Positions 882 to 63,218 of a stretch of 64,000 bases of DNA are shown in pieces (within the stretch, counting starts at the first letter, position 1; every line of letters begins with the position of its first letter). The notes under the pieces are model-generated. The model made no database searches and was not told the origin of the DNA. It worked only from the letters and a program-made list of their open reading frames with translations. Source of the DNA: Azorinus chamasolen (Eukaryota > Mollusca > Bivalvia > Cardiida > Solecurtidae). The stretch is from contig OY755241.1 in NCBI GenBank assembly GCA_963576725.1, positions 53,261,955 through 53,325,954 of the forward strand. Reading direction: 5' to 3'. The translations under genes were made by a program, and so were the position numbers.

Positions 882-897
882 TTAATGCTGACATTAA

Positions 898-1462
898 TGC
901 TTCATTTTTAGATTTGAATCTTTCAATTACAAATGATAAAGTTTCGTCCAAAGTATACGATAAAAGAGAAGATTTTAATTTTAAAATTGTTAGTTATCCT
1001 TTTCTAGATGGGGATGTGCCACGTTCTACATCTTATGGTGTTTATATTTCTCAACTTATTAGGTTTGCCCGAGCCTGTTCTTTGCTTGAAGATTTTAACA
1101 GACGTAATTTAGTTACTGATAAACTTCTTAAGCAAGGTTACAGATATCACAAACTTCGGAAAACCTTTTCTAAATTTTATTATCGAAATTTACCTCTCAT
1201 TAGTAAATATAATTGCAATCTACGGACGTTACTGCGACAAGGCATTTCTCAACCAGAATTTTATGGGGATGTTATCTACAAACTTAGGAAAATTCGGGGT
1301 CATATCCATTTTCATGATTTGTTTATAAAACGCATTAAAAATTTTAAAAAGAAAGGTTATGATCCTATTATATTGCAACACACTGCATGTTTGGTTATCG
1401 ATCCTTTTACAGTCGGTAGCTACGCTTCCCTCTTTGCTTGCGCGATGACAGGCCGAGGGTAG
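898..1462 (+). pseudogene. Naiad copy A reverse transcriptase, C-terminal fragment
   Basis: The frame starts abruptly at ASFLDLNLSITND, equivalent to the region just after the catalytic YLDD of copy C, and runs to TAG at 1460-1462. It shares the block KTFSKFYYRNL and the region around HTACLVIDPFTVG with copies B, C and D. All catalytic motifs are lost through 5' truncation, so it is not a functional enzyme. No in-frame TGA occurs in the retained part. The apparent start upstream at 581 lies in Mutator sequence on the opposite strand and is not real. Confidence 0.8.
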
Positions 1463-1504
1463 TACTCTATGATGGTATACTCTTAAACTTGGATACAGGA
1501 GGAG
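1461..1504 (+). promoter_or_regulatory. Truncated SECIS-like element of Naiad copy A
   Basis: Starting at the stop codon, the sequence has the helix-I strand AGTAC, an ATGA quartet, the helix-II strand ending CTCTT, unpaired AAA, a small stem CTTG/CAGG and the returning strand AGGAG. It stops at the LINE junction before the 3' core. It is homologous to the complete elements of copies B, C and D. Confidence 0.7.
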
Positions 1505-12911: not shown

Positions 12912-12974
12912 AATACATGAATCTGGTAAGCTCATCCTGTATCCAAGTTTAAGAGTATACCATCATAGAGTATT
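12912..12974 (-). promoter_or_regulatory. SECIS-like element of Naiad copy B
   Basis: On the minus strand, starting at the TAA stop: helix I AATAC/GTATT; core ATGA opposite AGAT; helix II GGTA/TACC and CTCTT/ATGAG (one mismatch); unpaired AAA; apical ministem CTTG/CAGG with loop GATA. It is 63 nt long like the copies C and D elements. AATAC/GTATT replaces AGTAC/GTACT, a compensatory change. Confidence 0.72.
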
Positions 12975-15275
12975 ACCCTCGGCCTGTCATCGCGCAAGCA
13001 AAGAGGGAAGCGTAGCTACCGACTGTAAAAGGGTCGATAACCAAACATGCAGTGCGTTGCAATATAATAGGATCATAATCTTTCTTTTTAAATGTTTTAA
13101 TGCGTTTAATAAACAAATCATGAAAATGGATATGACCCCGAATTTTCCTAAGTTTGTAGATAACACCCCCATAAAAGTCTGGTTGAGAAATGCCTTGTTG
13201 CAGTAACGTCCGTAGATTGCAATTATATTTACTAATCAGTGGTAAATTTCGATAATAAAATTTAGAAAAAGTTTTCCGAAGTTTGTGATATCTGTAACCT
13301 TGCTTAAGAAGTTTATCAGTTATAACTAAATTACGTCTGTTAAAATCTTCAAGCAAAGAACAGGCTCGGGCAAACCGAATAAGTTGAGAAATATAAACCC
13401 CACAAGATGTAGAACGTGGCACATCTCCATCTAGAAAAGGATAATTAACAATTTTAAAATTAAAACCTTCTCTTTAATCGTATATCTTGGACGAAACTTT
13501 ATCATTTGTAATTGAAAGATTCAAATCTAAAAATGAAGCTATAATGTCAGATTGATTCGCTTTGTTTAAAGACGGTTCTTTTGGGTAAATTGAAGAAATC
13601 ATAGTATCAAAATAAGGATTATCTAAATTCAAAATATCGTCTAAATAAGTTTTATTAAAAGCATTAACAATATCGGTCTGTGTACCAGGTGTTAAGCTAA
13701 GCATAAAATCCCTCTCATAGCAATACAAAAAAAATCTGCAACAAGAGGGGCACAATTTGTACCCATGGGTATACCAACAACTTGACGATATATGGTATCC
13801 CCATAACGCACAAATATATTATCTAAAAGAAAGGTAAGAGATCTACAAACATCAAGGCAAGTCCACGTTGTGTAATGTTCAACTTCTGAATGCGAAAAGA
13901 ATGAACGTTGAACATTACAAGCAATGAACATTTTGTTTTCTCTGGCAAAGGTTTTTTCTATTAATTTAATAAGTTTATCCTTTATAAGATGGTGCGGTAG
14001 AGTAGTATAGAGTGTAGATAAATCATAAGAGCTCAGTAAAGAAATGTTATACTGTTCATTTTCAAGTTTTGTTAAAACATCATTTGAATTTTTTATGGAC
14101 CAAAAAACATTAATACCAGAATTTTCATATATTTTATCACAGTAGCGTTTTACATGTTCTTTGATCGTAGTAAGACAGGACGTCAAAAGTATAGATAATT
14201 TAGTAGTGGTACAACAGCTAGAGTTGGCAATAAAACGCGCCTTATAAGGGTTGTTATGTAGTTTCGGAATCCAGTACAAAGTAGAACTTTATGTTGTTTT
14301 ATGTTAGGACCAGACCAGACAGATTATTGAACATTTTTACATGTTCCGAGACTTATCTTTTTCAGGTGTTTGAACTGTTATATAAGTTTTTGAATCAATT
14401 AGCTCCTTCTTTAAAACATCAACATAATACAATCTTCAAATAATGATTACATTATTTGATGCCTTGTCAGCAGGAACAAGAACATAATTTGAATGAGAAT
14501 TAGAAATGTTTTTCTTCAAATAGCGAAATGTAACTCTAGGTCGAGGTGGTAAAAGATGGTAATTTGATTTGTAAAAAGTAATACGCGTATCAATAATATC
14601 GAAAATATATTTCTTCCAATCTGAAAGGGCATTAACATCAGCATGTTCTCGTCGACACCATTTGATGCAGGATTCTTGAATAGCTTCCGCAATATGAGTT
14701 CGACAAGCGTCAAAATCAATAAGGGAAGGTGATCTATATTTAGGTCCTTTAGTTAGGAGGGTCCTGAGACGTTTATCCTTAATGATATCAACATTACCAG
14801 TAATGACATGACCAACTGGTTTATAGCAAAAGTCAGAGACAATTTTATTGTAGTTAAAAATAAAATTTCTAATAGGTTTATTATATTTATAACAGATGAT
14901 AGGTGATTCAGAGTTGATGAAATATTTGGGAATAGTATCGATTACATTCTTATCACGAAATATACTTTTAATATCAATAAAATCGATACCTTTATTTATG
15001 AACTGAAGTTTCAGAAAATGTCTTTTATGTTCAGATTCTTTATCAATACGTGGACAAAGAACATGCTGTGTGTAACTTTGTATAAGTGAGGCAGTATTAA
15101 TTAAGGGATCTGTACGCATATAGATTTTATCAGCCTCTTCGTCTACGGACTTGAGACAGGAAAAGGGTAAAGACAATAAACAAACAAGAGTCGTCACGGG
15201 TGACAAATGCCCCCAAAGTGTTTGACACCGAAATGCATTTTGGCGGAAAAACAATACAATGTAATGCAGGTGTAA
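12973..15275 (-). pseudogene. Naiad copy B linker and reverse transcriptase (frameshifted)
   Basis: The part 15275-14436 encodes the linker and the region upstream of the RT (ADKIYMRTDPLINTASLIQS to VPADKASNNVIII) and ends in TGA at 14436-14438. After that TGA the same frame continues RLYYVDVLKKEL, as in copy C, so the TGA is probably a selenocysteine codon and not decay. Beyond it, frameshifts and stops occur near 14290-14370, in the RT motif-B region near 13735, and a TAA replaces a Lys codon at about 13473. RT motifs YDLSTLYT and GIPMGTNCAPLVADF are recognisable, and the YLDD motif survives as TYLDD. Relative to copy C the U-x-C linker segment is deleted (VSDFCYKP directly). Inactive. Confidence 0.8.
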
Positions 15276-15299: not shown

Positions 15300-15560
15300 A
15301 TGACACAGGAGTCAGTTCTTAACATTAGAAACAGAACCTTTGACGATTATGATAGCTAAGAAAAGAGACAAGGGTCAAAACTTAGTTTAAAAGGACCCTG
15401 GGTTGATTGTCAACGTTAAAAACAGATCCTGGGTAAATTCTTAACGTTTAAAAAAAAGACACGGGGTCAAATTTCAATATTAAAAAACATGCTGTTGATT
15501 GTTACTGTTAAGTTGATTCTTAATGTTTAAGAAAGACCCTATGTCGATCCTTAACGTTAA
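15300..15560. repeat. Degenerate short tandem repeats (GACCCTGGGTTGATTGTCAACGTTAAAA-like)
   Basis: About six loose copies of a 35-40 bp motif containing GACCCTGGGT and TTAACGTTAAAA lie between Naiad B and the next element. No coding signal. Confidence 0.5.
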
Positions 15561-17455
15561 CAAGAGGGCCAGAATGGCCCTGAAGCGCTCACCAGACAAC
15601 TACAGGAGAAAATTTTCAGTTTTCACTATATGTTTCTATAGAAAACTAGCCGGCCCTTGGGCGGGCCAATTTTGACCCCAGGAGAATAATTTAGAAAAAC
15701 TTGAAGGGGACCTGAACATGATGCTATGAGCCAAATATGAAAGCTGAGATTAACCTTCCAGTTTCAGCGAAGAAGATTTTCAAAGTTTTCCGAATATGTT
15801 TCTATTGAAAACTGCCCACCCCTGTGGCAGGGCCAATTTTGACCACAGGGCCATAATTTATATAACTTTTGTAGAGGACCTGAACATGATGCTCTGTGCC
15901 AACTATGAAAGCTGAGAGCCTTCCAGTTTCAGAGAAGATTTTCAAAGATTTCACTATTTGTTTCTATTGAAAACTGTCCACCCCTGGGGCGGGGCCAATT
16001 TTGACCCCGAAACCATAATTTATATAACTTTTGTAGACGACCCCAACATGATGCTATGTGCCAAATATGAAAGCTGAGAGCCTTCAAGTTTCAGAAAAGA
16101 AGATTTTCAAAGATTTCACTGTTTCTATTGAAAACTGCCCACCCCTGGGGCGGGGCCAATTTTGACCCTGGGGCCATAATTTATATAACTTTTGTAGAGG
16201 ACCTGAATATGATGCTATGTGCCAAATATGAAAGCTGAGAGCCTTCCAGTTTCAGAGGAGAAGATTTTCAAAGATTTCACTATTTGTTTCTATTGAAAAC
16301 TTCCCACCCCTGGGGCGGGGCCAATTTTGACCCCGGGACCATAATTTATAAGACTTGTAGAGGACCTGAATATGATGCTATGTGCCAAATATGAAAGCTG
16401 AAAACCTTCCAGTTTCAGAGGAAAAGATTTTCAAAGATTTCACTATTTGTTTCTATTGAAAACTTCCCACCCCTGGGGCGGGGCCAATTTTGACCCCGGG
16501 GCCATAATTTATACAACTTTTGTAGAGGACCTGAACATGATGCTATGTGCCAAATATGAAAGCTGAGAGCCTTCCAGATTCAGAGAAGATTTTCAAGGAT
16601 TTCACTATTTGTTTCTATTGAAAACTGCCCACCCCTGGGGTGGGGCCAATTTTGACCCTGGGGCCATAAATAATATAACTTATGTAGAGGACCTGAACAT
16701 GATGCTATGTGCCAAATATGAAAGCTGAGAACCTTCCAGTTTCAGGAGATGATTTTCAAAGATTTCACTATTTGTTTCTATTGAAAACTGCCCACCCCTG
16801 GGGCGGGGCCAATATTTATATAACTTTTGTAGAGGACCATAACATGATGCTATGTGCCAAATATGAAAGCTGAGAGTCTTCCAGTTTCAGAGAAGAAGAT
16901 TTCACTATTTGTTTCTTTTGAAAACTGCCCATCCCTGGGGCGGGGCCGATTTTGACCCCGGGGCCATAATTTATATAGCTTTTGTAGAGGACCTGAACAT
17001 GATGCTATGTGCTAAATATGAAAGCTGAGAACCTTCCAGTTTCAGAGAAGATTTTCAGGGATTTCACTATTTGTTTCTATTGAAAACTGCCCACCCCTGG
17101 GGCGGGGCCAATTTTGACCCCAGGGACATAATTTATATAACTTTTGTAGAGGACCTGAACATGATGTTATGTGCCAATTATGAAAGCTGAGAACCTTCTG
17201 GTTTCAGAGAAGATTTTCAAAATTTTACTATGTTTCTATTGAAAATTTCCCACGCCTGGGGCGGGGTAAATTTTGACCCCAGGGCCATAATTTATATAAC
17301 TTTTGTAGAGGACCGGAATAGGACCGGAATATGATGCTATGTGCCAAAGATGAAAGTTGAGATCTCTGTAGATTCAGGAGAAGATTTTTAAAGGTTCAAA
17401 TTGTCGACGACGGACGACGAACGACGCACGCCGACGGACAACGGGCGATCACATG
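15561..17455 (+). repeat. Hairpin-started element with about eleven tandem units of about 162 bp
   Basis: It starts AACAAGAGGGCCAGAATGGCCC, of which AGGGCC/GGCCCT is a short stem. Units contain GGGGCCAATTTTGACCCC, TTTGTAGAGGACCTGAACAT, GATGCTATGTGCCAAATATG and TTTCTATTGAAAACTGCCCA. The right side ends in GACGACGGACGACGAACGAC and then a new copy starts at 17457. Short open frames here are shadows. Confidence 0.78.
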
Positions 17456-18419: not shown

Positions 18420-19105
18420 GATCTGATGCATATGTAACTTCAAGTTACATATGTGTCAGATTAGAATCCAATATTGTACTTCATAATTGTTTTGTACAAG
18501 AGAGTTTTAAATTGTAAGATTGACATGTATTAAAAAACAATGTGAACAATCTAAGACAAGCAGACAACAATTCTGAAGCAGACATATAATACTGATAAAG
18601 AATGCTACAGCATAGAACACTTGACTTGTATTCAGCTGAACTTCACAAAGATATACTGATAAGACTATATTGATATCTGAGAGCTTAATGCAGGACATAG
18701 ATATGCAAAGAGCATTTTGAGAATTATCCACTTAGTTTTCTCAATCTAAAATGCGTGTTTGTTATTTATTTGGCTAAACACAATTTCTACTCTACTGATC
18801 AGACTAAGGGTAAAACTTGCACAAACACTGAAACTGGCTATACTATGACATTTTCGTGTCCGCTCCATATCTTCTAAAGCCTTTGAAGGATTTTCATAAA
18901 AGTTTAATTAAATGTTAGCTAAATTGAGACGATGTGCAGAACACATGTGGCAGTCATGTCGGCTCAAGGTCAAGGTCACATTTGAAGATCAAGTGTTCGT
19001 ACCTTCAATTTCCATTATAGTTTCGTTATCTCCTATACCCCTTGAAGGATTTTCAAGAAACTTGCCTCAAATGTTAACCACGTTGAGACAATGTGCAGAA
19101 CACCA
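18420..19105. other. No gene recognised; two loose units of a 170-bp repeat at its end
   Basis: Around 18865-19105 the motifs CTTGAAGGATTTTCA and TTGAGACAATGTGCAGAACAC or near copies occur twice, separated by CGGCTCAAGGTCAAGGTCAC. A GTAACTTCAAGTTAC inverted repeat lies near 18433. Confidence 0.45.
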
Positions 19106-19107
19106 AG

Positions 19108-20303
19108 GGAAAGCCGAAGTCCTTGATGGTGAATGGGGTCAAGAATCTTCAGGTAAGACTTTCTAGCTGATCCATATACAATGCTTCCATAGTCCAGTTT
19201 AGAGCGAATTAATGATCGGTAAAGGCGCAGCAGCACTTTCCGATCAGCTCCCCAGTCAGTGTGAGCTAAAACTCGAAGAAGATTAAGAGATTTAAGACAT
19301 TTTGTTTTCAAATGCTTAATATGAGGTATAAATGTTAACTTTTTGTCAAATATAAGTCCTAAAAATTTGGCTTGATCAACCACAGGGATTTGAATATTAT
19401 TAAGATTTAAAACGGGGTCTTGGTGACAATTTCGTAACTGACAGAAATGAACACATTGCGTTTTTGACGTTGAAAATTTAAAGCCATTCTCATTATTCCA
19501 TGGTTTGTTGAGACATTGTTGAAGTTGTCTTTCAATAGTATGCATATTTTTGGTGCGATAACATATTAAAAAATCATCTACATACAAAGAACAGTCAACA
19601 CCTGAATTTAAACATTTGACAATATTATTAATTTTTAAACCAAATAAAGTTACTGATAAAATGCTTCCTTGAGGGACACCCTCCTCCTGCTGTTGTGTGT
19701 CAGAGAGTGTCGACCCAACTCGCACTTTAAAATTTCTGTCAGAAAGGAAATCCGCAATAAAAGTAGGTAGTCTACCTTTCAGACCTAGATCTTTCATAAT
19801 TCCGTACTTCCATGTTGTATCGTAGGCTTTTTCCATATAAAAAAAATACTGCAACAAGATGTTCTTTTTTAATAAAAGCATCACGAATAAATGATTCTAA
19901 ACGGACAAGATGATCGTTTGTACTACGCTGATTTCTAAAACCACTTTGAAAGTTATTTATAAGATTGTTAGATTCCAGAAACCAAACAAGACATGTATTA
20001 ATCATTCTTTCAAGTGTCTTACAGACACCACTAGTAAGAGCGATAGGGCGATAATTAGTAGGATTAGATGCATCCTTACCTGGCTTTGCAACAGGGACAA
20101 CAATGGCCTCCTTCCATGAAGGTGGAAGAACACCAGAATCCCAGATATGGTTAAAAATTGATAAAAGTGCTTGCAAAGATACATCGGGTAAATGTTTTAA
20201 AAGCTGATAATGTATGTCGTCTGGTCCTGTAGCAGTATCAGTTGACTTGCTCAAAGAATCCCTGAGCTCTAATAAAGAGAACGGTTTGTTATAATTTTCA
20301 TAA
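19108..20303 (-). pseudogene. LINE reverse transcriptase fragment (copy 2)
   Basis: Two overlapping frames together give an RT domain: NYNKPFSLLEL, TGPDDIHYQLLKHLP, PVAKPGKDASNPTNYRPIAL, then after a frameshift near 19835 EKAYDTTWKYG, GVPQGSILSVTLF, SLYVDDFLICYR and FLGLIFDKKLTF. At the frameshift the catalytic Asp of motif A, present as FFDMEKAYDT in copy 3, is lost in an extended T run. Endonuclease and RNase H parts are missing from this copy. The fragment is truncated both ways: beyond 20303 the protein no longer matches copy 3, and below 19108 it enters the 170-bp repeat. The clade is probably I/Nimb-like within the jockey group. The exact clade is an inference. Confidence 0.8.
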
Positions 20304-23810: not shown

Positions 23811-24822
23811 GAGTAAGTTGGGTTTTACGGCACCGCGACTCTAAATAGGTCATATAGCGCCAATGACGAACATTATGATGAAACGATGAAAATCAATAAA
23901 AAATCTCAATCAACGAGTGCGTAAATTATTAAAATATACGAAGATGAAAAGGTAGAAAGGAATACAGAAATAATGTAATGGAACGGGTTAAAAAGATTTA
24001 TATTTTAGAATAAAGACCAGTCTCAAAAACGAAATTATATTCTCGTAGGGAACTGTATTAAATAACTGATGCATAGAATAAACAGAAAAGTATTTACGTC
24101 TTATTATAGAAAGGTCAATACATTCAATCAGAAAATGTTTTACTGTGTATGGCTCTTGACAGAAGACACATTCTGGTTGAATTTCGCGCTTTAGTAAATA
24201 GGAATGATCAATATGAGAGTGTCCGATGCGACAGCGAGCTAGGACCACCTCATCTCTTCGTACAGCTCTAATTTAAAAGAGAATCACCAATGGTTGGTTT
24301 GATGGCATGAAGTTTATTGTTAATATTGCTGTCCCAAGAAACCTGCCATTTGGAACATATATGCTGTTTAATCAATGGTTTAAAATCAGTATATGGTATT
24401 TTGAAAACTGCCTCATTCAGATTTAGGGATGACTTGGCCGTTTTATCTGCCTCTTCATTTCCAACATGACTAGGTAGCCAACAGAAAACAATATTGTTTG
24501 ACAGAGATAATTTATGGTGTTTAAGAAGAATTTGCTGAACTAATGGGTTATTCATATTTCTGTTGTTCAACACTTGAAGAACAGAGAGCGAGTCTGAAAA
24601 AATTATGTATTTGTTCATATTGTGCACCGATATGAATGGAAGGGCAATGTCAATTGCTTGGACTTCAGCTGTAAATATGGAAGATTTGTCGGGTAGTCTT
24701 ACTTTAGAGGTATGAAATTTACTGACAGATGCACAACCGACTTTATTTTCATTTTTAGAACCATCAGTATATATGGGAATATGGTCAGGATACTGTGACT
24801 TAAGTTCTTCATATAGCTTTAT
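23811..24822 (-). mobile_element. 5'-truncated LINE with RNase H (copy of 1503-2629)
   Basis: It has the same 3' terminus as the 1503 element (GAGTGAGTAAGTTGGGTTTT on the plus strand) and near-identical coding sequence. It has several small deletions (for example the IRG before NEEAD is missing) and a frameshift near 24260 between LLN and the following RDEVV-like segment. It is inactive. Confidence 0.78.
23988..24800 (-). pseudogene. LINE RNase H domain, frameshifted
   Basis: IFSDSLSVLQVLNN, WLPSHVGNEEADKTAK and RCRIGHSHIDHSY follow the order of the copy at 1705, with Cys-rich tail PECVFCQEPYTVKHFLIEC. A frameshift splits the domain at about 24258, and upstream the YTDGSKNEN motif is still readable. 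Confidence 0.75.
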
Positions 24823-27900: not shown

Positions 27901-28556
27901 TTAGTCATCAGGCAAACTAAAATATATTAGCTTATGATCTGACCAGTATGCTTCAATTGTATCAGAAATGCCAGTGCAATTCGTAAATATCAAATCAAGA
28001 ATGGAGCCATAATCTGTTGTCATTTTTTTAATCAACTGTAAACAATGAAAGTCTCTCTTCATGAACTGGCAAAGAGTCCTATCAGATTTTGAAATATCAA
28101 TATTGAAGTCACCAATAAAAATAACATCTTTTGATGTGTCAATCTGTTTTTTCAACTCTTTTGTTATAGCGGCCTTAAATGATTTAAAGGAACATGATGG
28201 AGATTTATAAATAACAATTATTTGTTTGTCTGTGGAATGCTTTCTGACATCTAGGAAAGTAAATTCAATGTCTGTGGTGTTGTATGTAAAGCACTGATTG
28301 ACAATAATGTCATCTTTGACATACACAGCCAAACCATGTGGTGGTCTTACTCCAGGTTTGTTTTGTTTCTGGTCATTTCGAAGAAGTCGGAAACCATCAA
28401 CTGAATATTGTCCGCTACTATCAGTTCCATGTAATCTTGATTCAGCAAATGCCACCACATCAGCAGATTTCAGATTTTGGTCTGCACATATGTCTTCAAA
28501 ATGTTTATGTAAAGATCTGCAGTTGTTGAATAGAATAGTAAACCTGTTGTTCAATT
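27901..28556 (-). CDS. Helentron C-terminal endonuclease (exonuclease-endonuclease-phosphatase type)
   Basis: This is the last domain of the helentron polyprotein. Motifs in order: LFNNCRSLHKHFEDI (Asn), VVAFAESRLHG (Glu), VIYKSPSC (Tyr), FIGDFNIDI (Asp/Asn) and WSDHKLIYFSL (Asp-His), then stop after LPDD. These are the catalytic positions of apurinic-type endonucleases, which helentrons carry downstream of the helicase. Upstream residues in the same open frame (28557-28740) are Naiad 3' UTR read through and do not belong. It was originally joined to the helicase end at about 32162; Naiad C separates them. The domain itself is intact. Confidence 0.8.
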
Positions 28557-29010
28557 CAAAAAAAGTACAAAAATGAGTCATGCAGGAAATACCACATACA
28601 GAACAAACACTCGCCCGAACAGCAACACAAGGAAACAGCAAATGTACATGGGTAGAAAAAACAACAAGAGACGCACAAAGACAAAACAAACATTCAATAG
28701 GAGGAAGATGGAAGTACCGCCTTGGAACGGTCAGTGACAAAAGTCACCGGGGGTTTAAACCGGTTTATGGGCGCCCAACCTCACCCTTATTCCATCCCCA
28801 TCCTAAAAGACAAACAGTGTAAATAAACGTATCCCCTCTCCGACTAATCTACAACAACCGCGACAGCAAATACAGTGGTAAAGTGCATGTATAACAAAAA
28901 AAACCATTTAATTGAACATACTGTATCCACCTATCGCTAGTGTACTCAATGATTGAGCTGCAAACAGAGTAACTGTAGAAAAGTAATAAAGGGTACGACA
29001 AAAATGAAAT

Positions 29011-29073
29011 AGTACAGATATCCGACGTTCTCCTTCCATTTCTGGATTTAAGAGGTCGCCTTCATAGAGTACT
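29011..29073 (-). promoter_or_regulatory. SECIS-like element of Naiad copy C
   Basis: On the minus strand, overlapping the TAG stop: helix I AGTAC/GTACT; quartet ATGA opposite GGAT; helix II GGCG/CGTC (one G-U), an AC/AA internal loop, then CTCTT/AGGAG; unpaired AAA on the 5' side of the apical bulge; ministem TCC/GGA with loop AGAAAT. The spacing from ATGA to AAA is 12 nt. These are the features of a form 2 SECIS, which directs UGA recoding to selenocysteine in eukaryotes. Drawn by eye, not folded by program. Confidence 0.8.
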
Positions 29074-32000
29074 AAACCTTTCTTGTCGGCGTACATGCAA
29101 AGAGGCCAGCGTGATTGCCAACTGTAAAAGGGTTCACAACCAAACATGCAGTATGTTGTAATAATACAGGATCATATCCCTTTTTAATGAATTGTTTTAT
29201 ATATTTGATGAACAAAGTGAGAAAATGGGTATGTCCAATAATTCTACGAAGTTTGTAAATCACATCACCATAAAATTCAGGATGTGAAATACCGTGTCGC
29301 AAAAGTACCTTGAGATTACATTTGTACTTGCCAATAAGCGAGAGATTTCGATAGTAAAATTTAGAGAAAGTTTTTCTTAGTTTATGGTATCTATATCCTT
29401 GTTTAAGCAGTTTTTCAGTTAAAATGAGATTTCGACTGTTAAAATCGTCAATAGATGAACAAGCTCTAGCAAAACGAATAAGTTGAGATATATAAACCCC
29501 GTAAGATGGAGCACGGGGAACATCCCCGTCAAGATGAGGAAAATTTACAATATTAAAATCAAAATCATCTCTTTTGTCATATATTTTAGAAGAAATCATT
29601 CCATTATTAATTTTAAGGTCTAGGTCAAGAAACGCTGCATAATTGTCGGACGGGTTAGCTTTATTCAATTTGAGTTCTTTAGGATAAATTGTAGGAATCA
29701 GAGCATTAAAGAAAGGGTTATCTAAGTTAAAAATATCATCCAAATATCGACAAGTATCATTGAAGGCTTTTATAACATCTTCTTGTGATTGAGGATTCAA
29801 ACTCAACATGAAATCTCTCTCATAGCAGTACAAAAACAAATCTGCGACAAGTGGTGCACAATTCGTACCCATGGGAATACCAATTACCTGACGGTATATA
29901 GCATTCCCATAACGTACAAATATGTTGTCCAAAAGAAAGGTTAGTGCTTCGCAAACTTCTGAGCAAGTCCAATTGGTGTAATACTTCATTTGCTCGTCAG
30001 TAAAGAAAGCTTTTTCAGCATTACATGCCAAGAATGATGTTTTTTCTCGGGCAAATACTTTCTGGATCAAGTTAGTAAGCTTATCCTTAATTAAAACATG
30101 AGGAAGAGTTGTGTACAGAGTAGAAAAATCGTACGTGCTTACAGTGGATGCAAGATACCTTTTGTTCTTAAGTTTGTTTAAGACTTCTGAAGAGTTCTTA
30201 ATAGACCAGAAGAGATTTATTCCAGAATTTTCATAAGTCTTATCACAGTAAAATTTTAAATGTTCCTTTACCTTCGTTAAGCAAGAAGTCAAAAGTATAG
30301 ACAATTTAGTAGTTGTACATGAACTAGAATTTGCAATGAAACGCGCTTTATATGGTTTTTTATGTAGTTTTGGTAACCAATACATAGTAGGAAGTTTATG
30401 TTGTGTAATTTTAATATCGGTTCCAAATTGTTCACACTTTTTGACATGGTCTGAAATGATGGTCTTTTCGTCAGTGGTAACTGAAATGTATGACTTGGTA
30501 TTAGTAATTTCCTGCTTCAAGACATCGATATAATGTAATCGTCAAATAATAATCACATTATTTGATGCCTTATCAGCAGGAACAAAAACGTATTTTGAAT
30601 GGAAATCCTGTAAACCCTTTTTAAGATGTCTAAATGAAGTTCTAGGTTTAGGTGGAAGAAGGTGTTTATTAGAGCTGTAAAAGGAAATGCGTTTATCAAT
30701 TATATCAAAAATTAGTTTTTTCCAACAAGAAAGGGCAGTAGACTCAACATGTTCTCTTCGACACCATTTAATACTAAAATTTTGTAAAGCCTCCGCAATC
30801 TGAACTCGACAAGAGTTAAAATCTATCAAGGATGGTATTCTATATTTGGGACCTTTATTCAAAAGAGATCGTAGACGTTTATCTTTAATTATCTCAAAAT
30901 TACCAGTAATCACATGACCAGCCGGAGAATAGCAAAATTTTGAGATGGCGCAATCTCAATTATCAGGAATATTATCATTAATATTAAGGTCGGCCACAAT
31001 TTTATTGTAGTTGAAAATTGTATTTCTGATGGGTTTGTTATATTTGTAGCAGATGATAGGTGGTTCTGTATTTTTAAAGTATTTAGGAATAGTGTCAATT
31101 ACATTTTTGTCTCTAAAAATACTTTGTAGGTCAATAAAATCAATACCTTTATTAATAAAAGGAATTTTCAAGAAGAATCTTTGGTGTTCAGATAATTTGT
31201 CGATGTGCGGTCTGAGAACATGTAGAGTAAAGCTTTGTATCAAACTAGCAGTTCCTATGAGAGGATCTGATCGAAAAATAATTTTATCGGCTTGCTCGTC
31301 AATTTCTTTTAATGAACATATAGATAAGGAGGAAAGTCTAGAAAGCATGGCATGTTTTCCCGAAATTAGGCGTAAAGTATGTAGATCAAGAAGAGTCAAT
31401 TTCAAACGAGATTTTCGTTTAATATTACCATTCTTGCGAATGCCATGCGATCGAGATTTGCGTTTTCTAATAGAAAAAATTGAAAAAATATCTATATCTG
31501 GTTCTTTTGAAATATTTCCAGTCTGGTAAATATTATCATTCAGTCCTAAAGGAAAAGGTGTTTGCAATTTTTTGATCCAATTTAATTCAGATATAAATCT
31601 AGCTTTCGATTTAAAGCTACTAGTCGCCTCCTTATCGTATGTTATATGCTCAACAATTTGTACTAAAACATCTTTAAAAGAATGGCCAGATTTCCGAAAG
31701 TGTTGGTATAAAAAATTGTTTAGTTTACGATTTCGACACTGATATGCATGCTCACGAAATCGAGTTTTCAAAGCACGTCCTGTTTGTCCTACGTACTGTA
31801 TACCGCAACTAGGCGCGTTTCAAGTTAAAACATAAATAACGTTAGTAGTAGTACAATCAACGTCTGAGTTTATCTTGACATTAAATGTTCTACCATTAAC
31901 TGTAGATTTTATAGTGGAATTACAAGAAATGTTACTACAACATATGCACCTCTTAGCAAAGCACTTTTGGATAATTGGATACACTCTGTGTCGTCTGCAT

Positions 32001-32161
32001 AAGGACCGTTTACGAATAGAAGAAACATTTTGGATAACAGATTTTAAAGGTGAAAGTACAACTCTTGGTCCATTGAAAAAACATTTATTAATAGAAAGAG
32101 ATGGTATGTGAAAAGATGAAGCCGACTGAAGATTAAGTTGTTTTAAACGAACAAAAGGTTG
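29072..32161 (-). CDS. Naiad selenoprotein: GIY-YIG endonuclease plus reverse transcriptase with three in-frame TGA (Sec) codons
   Basis: About 1030 codons in a single frame ending TAG at 29072-29074, with TGA only at 31820-31822, 30956-30958 and 30542-30544. N-terminal part: RCICCSN, then GRTFNVK and the endonuclease NVIYVLT-U-NAPSCG followed by IQYVGQT (GIY-YIG core), LKTRFREHAYQ and SGHSF (the two His), FISELNWIKKLQT (Glu). The linker holds U-D-C in place of C-x-C. The RT (482 residues after the third TGA) has WLPKLHKKPYK, TYDFSTLYT (motif A), GIPMGTNCAPLVADL (motif B) and RYLDD (catalytic). N-terminal endonuclease order and CxC linker are the published Naiad hallmarks. No Met codon precedes the endonuclease inside the Naiad part, and the frame runs back into the helentron helicase, so translation start is unknown. 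It would copy RNA into DNA at a nick it makes itself. Apparently intact apart from the start. Confidence 0.85.
30542..30544 (-). other. In-frame TGA, candidate Sec codon 3 (before RT core)
   Basis: SNNVIII-U-RLHYIDVLK in copy C equals SNNVIII-U-RLYYVDVLK in copy B (TGA at 14436-14438). The same TGA between conserved flanks in two diverged copies argues for recoding, not random decay. Confidence 0.75.
30956..30958 (-). other. In-frame TGA, candidate Sec codon 2 (U-x-C linker)
   Basis: The frame reads NDNIPDN-U-DCAISKF. U-D-C sits where Naiads have a C-x-C motif between endonuclease and RT. Copy B lacks this stretch through a deletion. Confidence 0.72.
31820..31822 (-). other. In-frame TGA, candidate Sec codon 1 (first zinc ligand of GIY-YIG domain)
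   Basis: NVIYVLT-U-NAPSCGIQYVG: the TGA stands at the first Cys of the CCHH ligand set of Penelope-like GIY-YIG endonucleases. The Cys of SCG and the two His follow. One base separates TGA from either Cys codon. Confidence 0.75.
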
Positions 32162-35100
32162 AAGTTCACAGAGAGGAACATAACACAGCTCTAACCTTGA
32201 TTGACATAAACGTTGCATTTCTTGTACAACATGTTCATCTACCATAAGGGCGTTCTCATTAAAGTTCAAAATATGAAGGTTTGTCATAGACCTGACCCTG
32301 CTGAGAGCAACATAATGAAGGTGGGGAATTTTGCGTGTTTTCCTTTGAGACAAATCAATCACAAGTTCATCAACAGTTGTGCCTTGGGCTCGGTACACAG
32401 TTTTTCCAGCTGATGCTTGAAGAGGAAACTGAATTCGTTTTATAGTATTTCTGTAAGAGCAAAATGAACGCTCAACATCAAAAATAGGAGTCCACATTTG
32501 ATCAATTGCATCGTGATAAAAGCCTTTCTTTTTATATTTATTTCTTCTGTTTTTACCACATTTATCATCATCAAATCTGACCCAAATAATACTAGGCCTT
32601 GTTGTTTCTGTTTGTTTGTATTCTATATATTTTGCGATACATGGACTTCCATTGTTTAATCCATCTTCAGTGTCCAAGTTAATGGTTAAATCATAAATCA
32701 TCCCAAGAACAACAGTTAGAGAAAGCTGAAGACCCATTGTATTTGATATATCTAAAGACCTTATTCTATTTAAAATTTGTTCTTGTTTTTTGGCAGATAT
32801 ATTATCACCAACCACAGAATCATGACATTCAATGGATACTTTGGGTGCATTAAAACTCATCAGCATTTTGTCATTAAAACTATGCATAAATACATTTTCA
32901 GCAAAAATATGCGGTGCAGTTTTAGGATAAGACTCTGAATCTTGTTGAACAGTGCAGCCTGTAATGGTTATTTTGTCCTGCTCTGTCAATTTATTAATTC
33001 TTAGTCTATTGAGCATCTGAGCAAACTGAAAATCATCTTTTTGTCTCATGATTTCTGTAAGTTCAAACATTTTGAAATGTTCTTTCCATAAGTTTGGTGA
33101 TAATGCAGATGCATTCCTAGACAAATCCTGAAAAATCCATGTGTCTGCAACTGGTTTGAGTTGAAAAAGGTCCCCTACTGCAATAATGCTTATTCCACCA
33201 AATGGAATTTTCCTGCCAGTCAATTGCTGCAGCCTTTGGTCAATGAATGACAATTTATTATTACTGACCATTGATATTTCATCAATTATAACTACAGAAA
33301 GACTTTTGTATTTAGATCGAAATGTATTCAGCTGTTCACAACCTAATGTCTGGTTACTCTGTTTGAATCTTTCCATAAATGCAGATGATATAGTTGAGCC
33401 ATTTATATTGTAAGCTGCTTTTCCCGTGAATGCACATAACAAAATCCGCTTATCATCTGGATCTTCTCCCTCTTTCAAATTAAGCATCCTGTATAATGTC
33501 TGATACAAACATCTGATCACTACACTTTTACCTACCCCTGCGCCTCCAGTGAGAAAAGCATAAATGGGTTTATCCTTTGTCTTTATCCAATGGATCACAT
33601 GATTATAGAACTGCCTTTGTTTGTTATTGAGAGACCTTAAAAGTGATAAATAATCTTCATCTGACAAAACATTCTCAAGTTGCTCTACAGTTGCTGCAGA
33701 TCCACACCCACTGTCAAGTTCAATACCGATATCATACTCTCTAGGCCCTCCTACCTTATCAGGATTGAAAAATACAAATTCCTCAGACTCAACAGGCTCT
33801 TCTTGTAATGCTTCAGATTCTTGTTCCTGAGCTCCTGGAGCAATCTCATCATAGGCATTATAATCATTTTCTGCAAGCTCTCTAGCCTGATCTAATTCTT
33901 CAACATGATGTTCATATTGCTGTACTTTGACATCAATAAAGTTTTTGCGCTGTGTGTAATGAGCCTCAAAGGTATCATAATTACCTAATAAATCTGACTG
34001 TTCATTTCTCCAGGGGTGGAACAGAAGAAGTCTTTCCCTGTAGTAATTTTCTCTGTCGTTTCTCTTGTTGAATCTGACATATCTAATTACTCTCTTAGAT
34101 TTTCGTCTTCTGATCGTAATACCACTCTTCAACTTAATTGTTTTATCATCATCAAACCGTTCTATTTCAGACTCAGCTGTGTCATCATCATTGACTTCAT
34201 CATCATATGCTTCTGAGGATTTATCTTTTGGATATATAATATCAAGCTCTGATGCATAATCAGCAAGACAGAAATGTTGTATACAATGTGGTCGTTTTGA
34301 GTATCTGTTGATTAAATTGTCAGCAATGACATTAGTAGATTCAGCTGGTAATGCTTCTAAAGCCTCTTTGCTTTTCAGTAAATTAACTCTTTTACCAGTC
34401 ATTGATGTGTTTAAGAATACAACATCCCGAGTGCTTCTTGTTAATGGCATTTGTAAGACAAGATACACTGCTTCTTGAGCACTGACTTCCACACTGTTGG
34501 AAAACACATTGCCTACATGCCGGACCTGTCTTTTGATATCCATATTGCCAGCTTTTGCCTCTTTAACTGCAGCATGCATTAAATTACTCATTCCTCTCTG
34601 AGATTTACTTATATATGACACTATATACATTGCACAGGCATACGGATCTAATACAAACTGCATATCCATATTAGCTTTCCAGGCATGCAATACAGTTTCA
34701 TTGTAAAGATTCACACGAATATCTTTTGGACTTCGTTTCAAGAAAACTTTTGAAGCTTTTAAAGAACTTCTGATGCACTTGATATATTCTTGTTCATTCA
34801 TTTGTGCAACATTCAACAAGAATTCCTCATAAGACATTTCAAATCCCTCCTTCTCAGTGTTCATTCTCTTCTGTAATTTACTATACACCTTTTTATATTT
34901 ATCAGTGTCTGAGTCAAGTGGTTCCAATACCATAGTTTTTGCAAGAGGGGGTAATGGATAACCAAATCGACAAATATTATCTTCTTTTTTCCGACATGTC
35001 CGTGAATGCTTGTGAACTTGCAACTGTATTATGTCATTAAGATCATCATGATCAGAAGAGCATTTTAAATACTGATCCACAAAACTTGTGATTTCTTCAT

Positions 35101-35784
35101 GTGAATTTGACATAAGCTTTGGGGCTCCACCTACCCATACAATCATGTGAATATGTGGAGAACCTCTCTGTTGAAACTCAACTCGATAAAAATAGTCAGT
35201 AACTCTACCAATAGGGTTATGATCACTTTTCAAGACTGTCTTTATAAATTCTTGTACCCTATGATCAAAATATCTAGAGCATGTAACAGGATCTTTCTGT
35301 ACAAGTTTTGTCTTTTCTTCCCAAGTCATGGTATTAATCTGCTCATCTGTATAAGAAGCTCCATAATTTAATTTTGCAAGCATTTTCAACAAATCATTCC
35401 AACGTGTGTCAGCTGATGACAATGACATAAACCATGTTGGTAAACCAAGTTGTCGAATCATAGCAAATACATCTTTTTTCCGAGACTCTAGATATGCTGG
35501 AGAGTTTCGCAACTGCTTAAAAACAAAATACCCTTGATCCTTCCTAACAAATCCTTCAATGTGATTTTCATCTCGTGCTTGGGAAGCTGTTAATTTTCTA
35601 CCACTAAACTGACATTGTCTTACTACAAGATTTACTTTGTCATTCAACTGTTTCATTTGGATCTTTTTTAGCTTATAAAATATATTAGGAACACTATTAG
35701 CTGCTCTCCGGTCAACACTTCGCAACTCCCATTTTGCAACATCACTATATCTAACAGATACTGATCTTTCTTGATTGTCTTTGC
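32162..35784 (-). CDS. Helentron Rep/Pif1-helicase segment
   Basis: Open over about 1207 codons. The true frame enters from the upstream segment through a frameshift near 35784 (VGKDNQERSVSVRYSD), so the first apparent Met codons at 35830 are artefacts. Rep nuclease: two-His motif GSPHIHMIVW near residue 225 of the open frame and the tyrosine motif DPYACAMYIVSYISK near 395-409, which nicks and rejoins DNA. SF1 helicase: Walker A GGAGVGKS near 762, Walker B VVIIDEISMV near 847, ILLCAFTGKAAYNI and C-terminal HYVALSRVRSMTNLHIL. Usual Helitron order. It ends at VPLCEL, after which Naiad sequence follows in the same frame. Length and motifs agree with an active Rep-helicase core. Confidence 0.88.
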
Positions 35785-36348
35785 CCACAAAAAATTGCAG
35801 GAAAGCATAAATATTCTGAGTCAACATCATAGTAAATGCTCAAAGGCTTTTGGCCTTCACCTGGTGCAAATGTGAATGTTTCTGTTCTGTTTTCCAGATC
35901 TGAATAATCCACTAGAGTGTCAATATTTCCAACATTTGAATGATCAGTTTCCTCTGATTCAGAATCACACAAATCATTATCATCATTTTCATTAATATTT
36001 TGAACAATTTCTTGTGGATTTAAAACATGGCCGTCATTTGTTTCTTCACTTTCTGTTTGTGGCTTTACAAATTCTTGCAAAATGTCTTTACTCTGTTGTG
36101 TCACATCTTGAACCCATTTTTCATCAACTTGAACATTTGAATTTTTATACAGCTCACTGTGCCTCATTAACCAGTGCAAGGCAACTAGAACATGCAATGG
36201 CCTTATATTCTCTGTAAAAGCACAAGATGAGTATGACAATTTCTTCTTCAGTTTTACTGCAACAACAACATTCTCATCCAAAGGTCTTGGCAAAGCATCA
36301 ACAACAGGCTGCAGTTCTGTTGGCACATTCACTACAATACTGTCGTCC
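35784..36348 (-). pseudogene. Helentron N-terminal segment b (frameshift at both ends)
   Basis: It encodes VNVPTELQPVVDALPRPLDE and RPLHVLVALHWLMRHSELYK, then an acidic stretch and FTFAPGEGQKPLSIYYD, as in Helitron proteins just upstream of Rep. A one-base shift at GGGC near 35784 moves translation into the Rep frame. Another, at the GGGGAC run near 36348, joins it to the preceding segment. Confidence 0.75.
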
Positions 36349-36720
36349 CCTTGGCAATTCTCGTATCTGCATAAAAGGTATCCTAAGCGAAATAAGTCGT
36401 TCCTCTAGAGGAAACAATTCCAATTCTTTTGGCTTTTCTGGCCATTTCATACCATTTATTACTGAAAGCTTTGGAATTTTATTCAGCAATATGCTGTTTT
36501 TACATGTCAAACATATCCATTCTTTATCATCTACAGACACATGCTGTGTTAAGTACTTTTCTCTCTGTTCATTTGATAAAGTCTTTGCTTCTGATACACT
36601 CTGTTTGAACCATGTTTGGTGACAACAGCTACATATGTAGACTGGTCTTACCGATACATTTTTATGGAACACATCAATGCACTTACTGATATCTGAACCA
36701 TATTTCCTGCGCTTTAACAG
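36348..36720 (-). pseudogene. Helentron Cys/His-rich segment (DUF6570-like)
   Basis: RRKYGSDISKCIDVFHKNV, VYICSCCHQTWF, WICLTCKNSILLNKIPKLS and IPFMQIRELPRG are typical of the zinc-binding region between the N-terminus and Rep in animal Helitrons. It is joined to the repeat region by a frameshift around 36718. Confidence 0.7.
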
Positions 36721-38849
36721 CAATTTTTATAATCAACTGACTGCCTGGCTTTAGCCTTTGACTTTAAAGTGCACTGTCTTTCTTTGACCATTACTTCATC
36801 TGAAAGTCTTGCTAGTCTCTTTGCCTCTTTTTCTTTTTCCTTAAAGCTCTCTGACTGTCTTGCTTTAGCCTTGGCCTTTAAAGTGCGTCTTTTTTCTTCG
36901 AGCATAACTTCATCTGAAAGTCTTGCTAGTCTCTTTGCCTCTTTTTCTTTTTCCTTAAAGCTCTCTGACTGTCTTGCTTTAGCCTTGGCCTTTAAAGTGC
37001 GTCTTTTTTCTTCGAGCATAACTTCATCTGAAAGTCTTGCTAGTCTCTTTGCCTCTTTTTCTTTTTCCTTAAAGCTTTCTGACTGTCTTGCTTTAGTCAT
37101 GGACTTTAAAGTGCGTCCCTTTTCTTCGATCATAACTTCACTTGACTGTCTTGCTTGTCTCTTTGCCTCTTTTTCTTTTTGCTTAAAGCTCTCTGACCGT
37201 CTTGCTTTAGTCATGGACTTTAAAGTGCGTCCCTTTTCTTTAATCATTACTTCACTTGACTGTCTTGCTTGTCTCTTTGCCTCTCTTTCTTTTTGCTTAA
37301 AGCTCTCTGACAGTCTTGCTTTAGCCTTGGACTTTAGCGTTCGTCGCTTTTCTTCCACCATTACTTCATCTGATTGTCTTGCTAGTCTCTTTGCCTCCTT
37401 TTCTTTCTCTTTAAAGCTTCCTGATTGCCTCTGTTGTTGCTTATAGAATCGTAGGTAATTTTTTCTCATCTGTTCTTTTTTTCGGTCCTCCTGTTTTGTT
37501 TTGCTCTTTTGCACTTGATCCAGAAAATATCTGCCAATAAGTGTCACGTCTTCCTCATCAGTTGAAATAATAGCATAACCCTTTGCCACTTTCTTCAGCT
37601 TTGCTTTTGTTTCAACTTGATGGATAATTTCTGATACTACTTCTGGTTTCTTCTGTACATTTTTGGCTGTCTTTTTCCCTCTTGTAACATTTTTCCATTC
37701 ATTACAGCTAGCCTTACAGTTCATTCTTTCTTGTGCATCCACTTGACAGTTGTATGCAGTTGCCAATGTATCAACTTCATGATGGGAAACTTTACTATCC
37801 ATTTCATTGAAGACCAATGGTTGTAACTCAAACTGAGATGTCAAGTCAAGCAGCATGCTATTGTACACAGCATACATAAAACCAACTAGATCGTCAAGAC
37901 TATCAAATGATGCAAGCACTGAAAACCCATCAACAGAGGACAAGCCAGTATGGTCGTGTGAATGTGAGTCAAAGAAATAATATAGGCTATCTTTAATATA
38001 CACTGCTGAACAAACTGCACCAATTATGACAAGGATGTGTTTAGCACTCTGGAAGGCTGTATGTAGTGCCTGATGCAATGATGGTAGCTGCATATCACCA
38101 AACTGTTCAACAGCAACACCAGATATGACATTTGACTTTGTGATAATAACTTTTCTAGTGGGCATGTCTAAAACGTTTGGCAAATCATCAAAGCTCAGTA
38201 ACTTGCTCTCTAGCCTTTTTTTTGCTTTCAATCCAAAAATGATTCTGTGGTACAACTGATCACCCGCCACCAGCACATTGTCAATATCTTGTGAACAGAT
38301 GGTTTCTGGATATTTTCCATATGCTAATGCACACAAAGAATTAGCAACACACTGATTTCCCTAAGATTCAATGCTGAATTGTTTATCTCCTTGATGAAAA
38401 GTGCCAAAAATGAAATTCCCTGTGTTTGAGCTTCCATGCTTGTGAAAATCATCATTCAACATATCATTTGTTACTTCATTCAACAGGTGATTTGAGGCAT
38501 TTGATGTTTGCACAAATAACACATCCTCTAACATATCTTTAGGAATCTTTTCAGCAATATATTCTGGACAGTTTTTAGGTATTTCATAAAGCAATTCTTT
38601 TGGCAAGTCTTTGGCATTTATCACACAGTCAGATGGCCCATAAGGCTTGTAAGGGTGGGCATGTACCCCCATCTGATAACAAGTGCCCTGTGCAGATGAG
38701 CATATTTGCTCATCTGATTCATTTGAAGTCTGTAGAGGACTGCAGTCGTCAACTACACAATCTGCCTGCTCATCAACTGATCGTCTCCTCATAAACTCCC
38801 TGCGGCTAGATTTACGTTGGTCAGTAGACTTTCTCTTCAACCTCGGCAT
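36718..38849 (-). pseudogene. Helentron N-terminus: cysteine protease-like domain plus six charged repeats (one nonsense codon)
   Basis: Starts MPRLKRKSTDQRKSSRREFM at 38849. After 162 codons a TAG (38361-38363) interrupts FSIES and GNQCVANSLCALAYGK. The Gln-Cys block and the later YYFFDSHSHDHTGLS (Asp/His) fit a papain-like C76/tegument-type deubiquitinase fold or an OTU-like protease, as found in helentrons. About 240 residues later come six tandem 38-residue units (SESFKEKEKEAKRLARLSDE and onward), strongly charged and probably helical. Start, protease and repeats lie in one frame except for the TAG. The repeat count probably varies between copies. Confidence 0.7.
36741..37424 (-). repeat. 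Coding minisatellite: six 114-bp units
   Basis: Six in-frame 38-codon units, with the two central ones nearly identical at the DNA level, so array length probably changes by unequal exchange. The long plus-strand frame at the same place is its shadow. Confidence 0.85.
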
Positions 38850-39230
38850 TGTTCTGGAACAGAATTAAGCAAAGAAAAGTCATATGCAATGTAACTGATT
38901 CATAAATATACAGAAGAACTATATGGCTCTGAATGGGTGATTCTACATTCACATACTTTTAATCTATTTGACATGATCAATTATTACACAACTAGGTTTT
39001 GAAAGGGTTTTACTGTTTATATCCTGTATTTCAGACAGCAATATTGAAACTGCCCTGTGAAAAATAAACAATAATCATAACTGTTTTTTAAAACTATTTG
39101 ATATAGACAGGTATTGTCCAGTTTTTTAACCTGTCAAAACTTAAATAATTATATGCTTGCTGAAAACACCATACATAGGTTGACCGTAGACTAAGTGACC
39201 TAAAAAACAAGAGGTATCATTTATTGGTCA
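38850..39230. other. Helentron 5' flank, no gene recognised
   Basis: AT-rich sequence upstream of the first helentron codon; no terminal motif was confidently identified. Confidence 0.4.
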
Positions 39231-59000: not shown

Positions 59001-59012
59001 CGATAAAAATTA

Positions 59013-59640: not shown

Positions 59641-59642
59641 CT

Positions 59643-61012
59643 AACAAGAGGGCCAGAATGGCTCCGACATCGCTCACTAGGCAATCAGAGGAGAAGATGT
59701 TCAAAGTTTTCACTATATGTTTCTAGAGAAAACTAGCCACCCCTTTTTTAAAAGTAATTTTTTATGACTTTTAAATCATGTGAAAGGTGAGGGACAGCAT
59801 ATTACAATTTTTTGAAGAATCGCCCATATAAATTTCGTAGAGGACCTGAACATGATGCTATGTGCCAAATATGAAAGCTGAGAACCGTTCAGTTTCAGAG
59901 AAGAATATATTTCAAAGTTTTACCATATATTTCTATTGAAAACTGGCTACCCCTGGGGCGGGGCCAATTTTGACCCCAGGGGCATAATTTATATAACTTT
60001 TGTAGAGGACCTGAACATGATGATATGTGCCAAATATGAAAGCTGGGAACCTTCCAGTTTCAGAAGAAAAGATTTTCAAAGTTGTCACTATATGTTTCTA
60101 TTCAAAACTGGCTACCCCAGGGGCATAATTTATATAACTTTTGTAGAGGACCTGAACATTATGCTATGTGCCAAATATGAAAAAGCTGAGAACCCTGTAG
60201 ATTCAGAGAAGATTTTCAAAGTTGTCACTATATGTTTCTAATGAAATCTGGCTACCCCTGGGGCGGGGCCAATTTTGAACCCGGGGGCATAATTTATATA
60301 ACTCTTGTAGAGGACCTGAACATGATGTTATGTGTCAAATATGAAAGCTGAGAACCTTCCAGTTTCTGAGAAGATTTTCAAAGTTGTCCCTATATGTTTC
60401 TATTCAGACATGGCTACCCCTGGGACAGGGCCAATTTTGACCCCTGGGGCATAATTAATATTCTTTTTGTAGAGAACCTGAATATGATCCTATGTGCCAA
60501 ATATGAAAGCTAAGAACCCTGTAGATTTAGAGGAGAAGATTTTCAAAGTTTTCACTATATGTTTCTATTGAAAACTGGCCACCCTTGGGGCGGGGTCAAT
60601 TTTGACCCTAGGGGCATAATGTATACGAGTGATTCTTCAAAAATTGGTAATTTTGCCTACAAATTTTTCAGAAACATTTTGCTCATAAAACCGTTTGCTT
60701 AACACGTATACCATAACTATGAACTGTCTTTGACTTATAAAAAGTAATGTCCGTGCCGATTGTTCAATAGAAAAAAGATTTTTTACATTTTTTAAATTGC
60801 CAATGACCTGAAAATTCATAAAAGTGCCAAATATGAAAGCTGAGAACCTTCCAGTTTCAGAAGAAAAGATTTTCAAAGTTGTCACTATATGTTTCTATTC
60901 AAAACTGGCTACCCCTGGGGCGGGGCCAATTTTGACCCCAGGGGCATAATTTATATAACTTTTGCATCATGTTCAGGTCCTCTACAAAAGTTATATAAAT
61001 TATGCCCCTGGT
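59643..61012 (+). repeat. Hairpin-started element with about seven units of about 160 bp and an inverted end
   Basis: It starts AACAAGAGGGCCAGAATGGC. Units match the 15561-17455 array. About 200 bp at 60625-60825 is foreign to the unit (TCTTCAAAAATTGGTAATTT). At 60938-61012 the unit folds back on itself: GGGGCATAATTTATATAACT against AGTTATATAAATTATGCCCC. Confidence 0.72.
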
Positions 61013-62448: not shown

Positions 62449-62829
62449 CGTTTAAAGGCTTTCTCTAAATTTTACTATCGAAATCTCTCACTTATTGGCA
62501 AGTACCAATGTAATCTCAAGGCGCTTCTGAGACACGGTATTTCACATCCTGAATTTTATGGTGATGTGATTTACAAACTTTGTAAAATTATTGGACATAC
62601 CCATTTTCTCACTTTGTTCATCAAATATGTTGGTGATGTGATTTACAAACTTTGTAAAATTATTGGACATACCCATTTTCTCACTTTGTTCATCAAATAT
62701 GTTAAAAATTCATTAAAAAGTTATATGATCCTGTAGTACTACAACATACTGCATGTTTGGTTGTCAACCCTTTTACAGTTGGCAATCACGCTGGCCTCTT
62801 TACATGTACGCCGACAAGAAAGGTTTAGT
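62449..62829 (+). pseudogene. Naiad copy D reverse transcriptase C-terminal fragment
   Basis: KCNLK-like LLRHGISHPEFYGDVIYKL then a repeated GDVIYKLCKIIGHTHFLTLF, a frameshift after KNSLK at about 62720, then the block ending TPTRKV and TAG at 62827-62829. There is no catalytic motif. It ends at the SECIS, as in copy C. Confidence 0.78.
62558..62702 (+). repeat. 68-72 bp tandem duplication in Naiad D
   Basis: GGTGATGTGATTTACAAACT to CATCAAATATGTT occurs twice. Copy E carries the same duplication, indicating a shared parent copy. Confidence 0.85.
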
Positions 62830-62889
62830 ACTCTATGAAGGTGACCTCTTAAATCCAGAAACGGAAGGAGAACGTCGGATATCTGTACT
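62827..62889 (+). promoter_or_regulatory. SECIS-like element of Naiad copy D
   Basis: Starts at the TAG stop: helix I AGTAC/GTACT, ATGA opposite GGAT, GGTG/CGTC (two wobbles), CTCTT/AGGAG, AAA, ministem TCC/GGA with loop AGAAAC. It is 63 nt, as in copies B and C. Confidence 0.75.
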
Positions 62890-63218
62890 ATTTCGTTTTT
62901 GTCGTACCCTTTATTACTTTTCTACAGTTACTCTGTTTGCAGCTCAATGATTGAGTACACTAGCAATCAATAGGTGGATACAGTTTGTTCACTTAAATGT
63001 TTTCGTTATACATGCACTTTACCACTGTATTTGCAGATTAGTCGGAGAGGGGATACGTTTATTTACACTGTCTTTTAGGGTGGGGATGGAATAAGTGTGA
63101 GGTTGGGCGCCCATAAACCGGTTTAACCTCCCAGTGACTTTTGTCACTGACTGTTCCAAGGCGGTACTTCCATCTTCCCCCTATTGTATGTTTGTTTTGT
63201 CTTTTGATGTTTTTTATA

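Follow-up and report, generated by a model that had tools for sequence, protein, structure and literature searches.

A Naiad-type Penelope-like element of the bivalve Azorinus chamasolen predicted to encode a selenoprotein with three in-frame UGA codons

Organization of the Locus

The window, that is, the whole stretch of 64,000 nucleotides analysed here, comes from the bivalve Azorinus chamasolen (GenBank assembly GCA_963576725.1, contig OY755241.1, positions 53,261,955 to 53,325,954 of the forward strand). It carries a Penelope-like element (PLE), designated copy A, which lies within a Helentron, together with degraded copies of the same and of a sister family (Table 1).

Table 1. Coordinates of the PLE, its relatives, and the surrounding Helentron in the window
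Feature	Position	Strand	Description
Fragment C	890..1500	+	B-family copy reduced to its 3' end, with SECIS lacking its 3' half
SECIS of copy B	12912..12974	-	RF00031, 26.9 bits
Copy B	12979..15179	-	Sister family; truncated at the 5' end and broken in frame; its TGA at 14436-14438 corresponds to TGA 3; stretch of TGA 2 deleted
Helentron endonuclease	27901..28559	-	3' portion of the gene split by the PLE; Exo_endo_phos (Pfam), 1.8e-5, 25 bits (cut-off 24.5)
3' untranslated tail of copy A	28561..29071	-	End GACTCATTTTTGTACT common to the 17 family copies shown
SECIS of copy A	29011..29073	-	Starts inside the TAG stop; AUGA / AAA / GA core, three helices; RF00031
Coding frame of copy A	29072..32161	-	Penelope-like (Naiad-type); GIY-YIG, then RT-like part; 1029 codons and TAG
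TGA 3	30542..30544	-	Codon 540, flanked by NNVIII and RL.Y; also in copy B
TGA 2	30956..30958	-	Codon 402, first position of C-x-C linker (U-D-C)
GIY-YIG nuclease domain	31559..31840	-	Pfam PF01541, residues 108-201 of window:31442-32161
TGA 1	31820..31822	-	Codon 114, first Cys position of CCHH-like motif (U-x4-C)
Codon 103	31853..31855	-	TGT (Cys) in copy A; putative Sec/Cys exchange site
Helentron Rep and PIF1-like helicase	32162..35911	-	5' part of the PLE-interrupted gene; Pfam Helitron_like_N 1.1e-28, PIF1 3e-23
Fragment E	62455..62892	+	3'-terminal piece of an A-like copy, including its SECIS region

A recount of the frame of copy A between positions 29075 and 32161 (minus strand) gave 1029 codons with three TGA, no TAA, and no TAG before the terminal TAG, in agreement with the first-pass annotation, which had described about 1030 codons. 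The nuclease domain was detected by Pfam (25.9 bits; cut-off 22.6) with the N-terminal 240 residues of copy A as the query, and no family was reported when the whole 1029 residues were used. The RT part, for which no Pfam or PDB match was obtained, is provisionally assigned by motifs such as YLDD, which was read by eye in the C-terminal part of the translation along with other RT-like motifs. The PLE as a whole had no match in PDB, and a structure prediction from alignment A1, with a pLDDT of 30.7, was set aside.

Two of the TGA codons had been placed at functional Cys positions, and the sequence of copy A bears this out, as U114-x4-C119 with a downstream His and U402-D-C404 can be read in it; these we take to be the CCHH-like motif and the C-x-C linker. 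The third TGA recurs, as had been claimed, between identical residues in copy B. Calculated from the single-base changes that lead to stop codons, the probability that three stops arising at random would all be TGA is about 0.024-0.028, which is weak evidence for copy A on its own and strong together with the related copies.

Elsewhere in the window, a long and imperfect tandem repeat array was observed at 15559-17393, which is upstream of copy B, and repeats related to it at 59642-60953; a further block of tandem repeats, whose units are about 75-80% identical, lies at 5973-7490. Retrotransposon RT fragments with RVT_1 matches were present at 19033-19893 and 57624-59006 (minus strand), and a Pfam match to RNase H at 24271-24822 (minus strand).

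Nested Insertion in a Helentron

When TGA is read as a residue, the frame of copy A extends upstream to position 35911, with an additional TGA at 35840-35842, and the extended frame (29072-35911) comprises 2279 codons. A PDB search with this long frame returned just helicases (PIF1-type and Helraiser). The Helentron itself occupies 27901-38864 on the minus strand and consists of an upstream ORF with a Herpes_teg_N match (5e-10), a DUF6570 match, the Rep-helicase, and the endonuclease, with the PLE interrupting it. At the end of its accessory ORF (36760-37430, minus strand), a unit rich in Lys/Glu/Ala/Arg (SFKEKEKEAKRLARQSDEV and similar) is repeated in several near-identical copies.

The same Helentron was found without the PLE at two other loci, with identities on the two sides of the site of 98.4% and 97.0% (L002) and 95.5% and 92.0% (L003). 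Their alignments run to window position 32159 or 32162 and resume from 28559. Because both loci align on either side without the PLE, the element must have landed in the linker between the helicase and the endonuclease. The flank repeat at the insertion is about two T, which is too short for a sure target-site duplication, and no second locus with the same Helentron-PLE junction was present among 22 genome matches.

Copies of the A Family in the Genome

The genome of 1.72 Gb in 137 contigs was searched for further copies; 21 of 43,619 candidates were scored, which yielded at least 17 further A-family copies, and all 17 were fetched. In all 17, the three codons were TGA and the frame ended with TAG, and neither TAA nor TAG occurred inside any of the frames, so that the alignment of same-genome copies proposed in the first-pass annotation revealed no random codons at these positions. 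One additional TGA lay upstream of the Met, outside the ORF.

Since the other 17 copies have an ORF that begins at its own Met, 34 codons upstream of the part kept in copy A, copy A is 5'-truncated; the full-length protein of the family has 1,063 residues. Of the element span first proposed (29072..32161), the frame with its three TGA thus stands, but its upstream limit, 32161, is the insertion junction and not a start. Divergence among the 17 copies averaged 0.16%, with a maximum of 0.31%, and their ORFs included 15 distinct sequences. The A family is a recent burst, and because its members are nearly identical, the 17 copies amount to about one observation.

Conservation of the TGA Codons in the Sister Family

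The sister (B) family is about 70% identical to the A family. A query from the copy B of the window gave 165 matches (12,797 candidates, 138 scored), and 29 loci (L035-L063) were compared codon by codon, with the window copy (L034), unaligned codons, and non-colinear pieces excluded; all copies come from one genome, and the loci fetched had the highest scores, a choice biased towards intact copies. In this comparison, TGA was found at codon 103 in 19 of 19 aligned loci, at codon 114 in 19 of 20 (TGG in the exception), at codon 402 in 27 of 28 (TTA in the exception), and at codon 540 in 26 of 29 (TCA, TGT, and TAA once each). The four sites together were TGA in 91 of 96 aligned cells, and stops elsewhere in the 29 loci numbered 12 in 27,107 codons (3 TGA, 6 TAA, and 3 TAG). 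The random codons or TAA and TAG that would have spoken against the reading of the first-pass annotation were not what the related copies showed at these positions.

Among the matches listed, a hand count over the queried stretch, with the window's own copy excluded, showed that two TGA were the sole stops in 101 of 110 near-full-length rows. Of the other nine, six had a single TGA, one had three TGA, one had two TGA together with a TAG, and one had a TGA together with a TAA; two shorter rows among the matches listed also contained TAG or TAA.

Codon 103 is TGT in the A family and TGA in the B family, which appears to be a Sec/Cys exchange, and the predicted number of Sec residues is accordingly three in the A family versus four in the B family. 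Among the loci examined, no relative had Cys at codon 114 or 402; at codon 540, the TGT of the single B locus is a Cys codon.

Selection across the TGA Codons

Codons 114, 402, and 540 remain TGA across a dS of about 1.5 between the families, a distance at which dN/dS ratios are rough. The dN/dS of copy A against the copy B of the window was 0.146 over 622 codons, and against four B loci, with the four Sec sites left out, it was 0.140-0.147 overall. By segment, the values against these four loci were 0.33-0.34 for the N-terminal 102 codons, 0.07 in two loci and saturated in two for codons 104-401, 0.20-0.22 for codons 403 to 539, and 0.138-0.145 after codon 540. The between-family ratio stayed at about 0.14 whether TGA was read as Cys or the sites were left out. 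The dN/dS check that had been suggested beforehand thus showed purifying selection between the families on both sides of these codons, also past the last TGA.

Within the B family, dN/dS was about 0.49, and fragments E and D compared with copy A gave 0.5-0.8. Such weak within-family constraint is as expected, being what dead copies would give.

SECIS Element at the Stop Codon

A SECIS-like structure had been noticed at the stop codon of copy A, and a search of 301 bases with the Rfam model RF00031 (SECIS_1) matched positions 29011-29073 over the full length of the model (26.0 bits, E 0.0044). The match of copy B was likewise full-length, but both scores lie under the gathering score of 35, and at the gathering score no Rfam match was obtained in the whole window. 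The claim that the stem-loop scores as a SECIS consequently stands as regards the full-length match and the covariation described below, but not as regards the gathering score. At E<=3, the whole window gave just two SECIS_1 matches, those of copy A (E 0.94) and copy B (E 0.51), which are singly not significant, yet each begins at a PLE stop codon. A motif-plus-fold scan of both strands, the limits of which were chosen after the element had been seen, returned the same two and no other. Helix I of the SECIS begins with the stop codon itself.

Folding compared with shuffled sequences gave z-scores of -3.0 for copy A, -3.2 for copy B, and -0.3 for fragment E, the last being no better than shuffles. 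The three commonest forms of the B-family SECIS had z-scores of -3.7, -2.6, and -1.6, and for the rarest of the three (z -1.6), 15 of 200 shuffles were as low. Across five sequences from the two families, 96.8% of cells paired, in comparison with 35-53% when the pairing was slid. Six of 19 pairs changed on both sides (reached by 19 of 500 shuffles), and none of 500 shuffles reached the covariation score, although in essence just two families underlie this covariation; further pair types were no more numerous than in shuffles (435 of 500). In helix I, copy B has A-U in place of G-C; this was considered as the norm of the B family and rejected, the norm being G-U.

The SECIS core word was present in 26 of 29 B loci, and 16 of the 17 A copies had one identical SECIS, with the remaining copy differing in helix I. 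In a search of three A loci and six B loci, SECIS_1 reached E<=1 in every A locus and in no B locus. In nine of the 17 A copies, an upstream unit carries the SECIS word 3960-3964 nt before the copy's own, and at one locus (L010) the upstream and downstream units share 786 nt at 100% identity. Evenly spaced, same-strand copies of the four-Sec B family were observed among the matches listed at C4:2143830-2157278 (4192-base steps) and C9:49674896-49684176 (4204-base steps).

Predicted Host Decoding of UGA

The genome contains a tRNA-Sec at C15:42628169-42628254 (80.7 bits; cut-off 47), to which ARAGORN assigned the anticodon TCA. The matched Helentron frames of L002 and L003 had no stop in 1206 and 1210 codons, respectively, so that UGA does not serve as a general sense codon. 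Two TGA were present in another Helentron piece (C4:2907948-2909003).

Discussion

Copy A is very probably a young, 5'-truncated insertion of a Naiad-type PLE encoding a selenoprotein, in which three UGA codons are read as Sec by means of a SECIS built on the stop codon and translation ends at UAG, with a sister family that does likewise with four UGA. The reading put forward in the first-pass annotation is thus supported by the TGA codons shared within and between the families, the SECIS_1 match, and the between-family dN/dS of about 0.14. The hairpin beginning in the stop codon would recruit the host SECIS-binding and Sec-elongation factors, the tRNA-Sec would decode the three UGA (or, in the sister family, the four) as selenocysteine, and the ribosome would terminate at UAG. 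Sec at the CCHH and C-x-C positions may help to hold zinc or may tune redox or enzyme properties.

Ordinary decay of a dead copy might be thought to account for the TGA codons in a window where copies B, C, D, and E are truncated or frameshifted and copy A has itself lost its 5' end. The same codons are, however, TGA in all 17 A copies and in nearly all B cells, and they persist over the distance between the families with a low dN/dS downstream. Decay or chance as their source was rejected on the strength of these shared codons and the between-family selection, and it is scarcely credible. Preservation of the downstream frame would follow equally from plain stop suppression or a variant code, with UGA translated as Trp, Arg, or Cys without a SECIS, although nothing direct speaks for it. 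Such read-through would not call for a SECIS with a core and compensatory changes at the stop codon, nor for Cys at codon 103 of the A family where the B family has UGA; the Helentron frames of L002 and L003 are free of TGA, even if the other Helentron piece has two, and a tRNA-Sec is present. We consider plain read-through improbable.

The 2279-codon frame could also be taken at face value, as a real Helentron-PLE fusion joining a Rep-helicase to a GIY-YIG-RT protein, given that it is a single frame, open apart from TGA, with Helitron and PIF1 domains. In L002 and L003, however, the same Helentron lacks the PLE and aligns on both sides into the endonuclease, each of the 17 other A copies has an initial Met of its own, with a match confined to the PLE part, and a junction would be in frame by chance about 1 in 3 times. 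The fusion was rejected because of the empty site at these two loci and is very improbable; the long frame arose by accident, where one junction of a nested insertion happens to be in frame. The preferred reading therefore remains a selenoprotein-coding PLE inserted into a Helentron.

Selenoproteins are scarce and, as a rule, encoded by the host. With at least 17 near-identical copies of full length, a mobile element that would need three or four Sec per protein would tie transposition to the selenium pathway, and the A and B families would form a natural Sec/Cys exchange pair within one genome. We tentatively propose that the co-resident amplified Naiad families, with their Sec/Cys exchange (three versus four), the SECIS built on the stop codon, and an upstream SECIS copy in a pseudo-LTR or tandem unit, might be gated by host selenium, with the Sec number tuning nuclease and RT output, though we think this rather unlikely. 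The element also serves as a warning, as gene callers that halt at TGA would split such ORFs into apparent pseudogenes.

None of the papers listed in a literature search had a title on Sec in Penelope-like elements, and no relatives were found in pattern scans of viral contigs or prokaryote contigs or by tblastn of phage records. Naiad elements have an N-terminal GIY-YIG domain, a C-x-C linker, a C-terminal RT, pseudo-LTR or tandem units, and a high copy number, and they are not known to carry a hammerhead ribozyme. Naiad PLEs of clams and spiders were reportedly described in 2021 by Craig, Yushenova, Rodriguez, and Arkhipova (Mol Biol Evol 38:5005) as selenoproteins with multiple Sec. The kind of element is thus already known, and what the present work may add to it is a further instance, two families that differ in having three or four predicted Sec, the fusion of the SECIS with the stop codon, and the nesting in a Helentron. 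The name Naiad is applied here provisionally, by domain order and motifs, and the present elements appear to fit that description in their N-terminal GIY-YIG domain, linker (U-x-C in place of C-x-C), C-terminal RT-like part, pseudo-LTR or tandem units, and many copies, as well as in the lack of a hammerhead ribozyme match in the window (gathering score and E<=3) and in nine element loci (E<=1). They may differ from Naiads described so far in comprising two families, one with three and the other with four predicted Sec, and in a SECIS starting in the stop codon.

As described in PMC11167929, canonical Penelope/Poseidon PLEs share with the present element a GIY-YIG nuclease and, if its RT-like part is correctly assigned, a telomerase-like RT in one ORF, as well as a pLTR, but their nuclease is C-terminal and their RNA contains a hammerhead ribozyme, whereas the GIY-YIG domain is N-terminal here; the word selenocysteine has no occurrence in the main text of that source. 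With animal selenoprotein mRNAs (RF00031), the element has in common the AUGA, AAA, and GA core and a full-length match to the model, and it is distinguished from them by a score under the gathering score, a SECIS that overlaps the stop codon, and its nature as a mobile element with three to four UGA.
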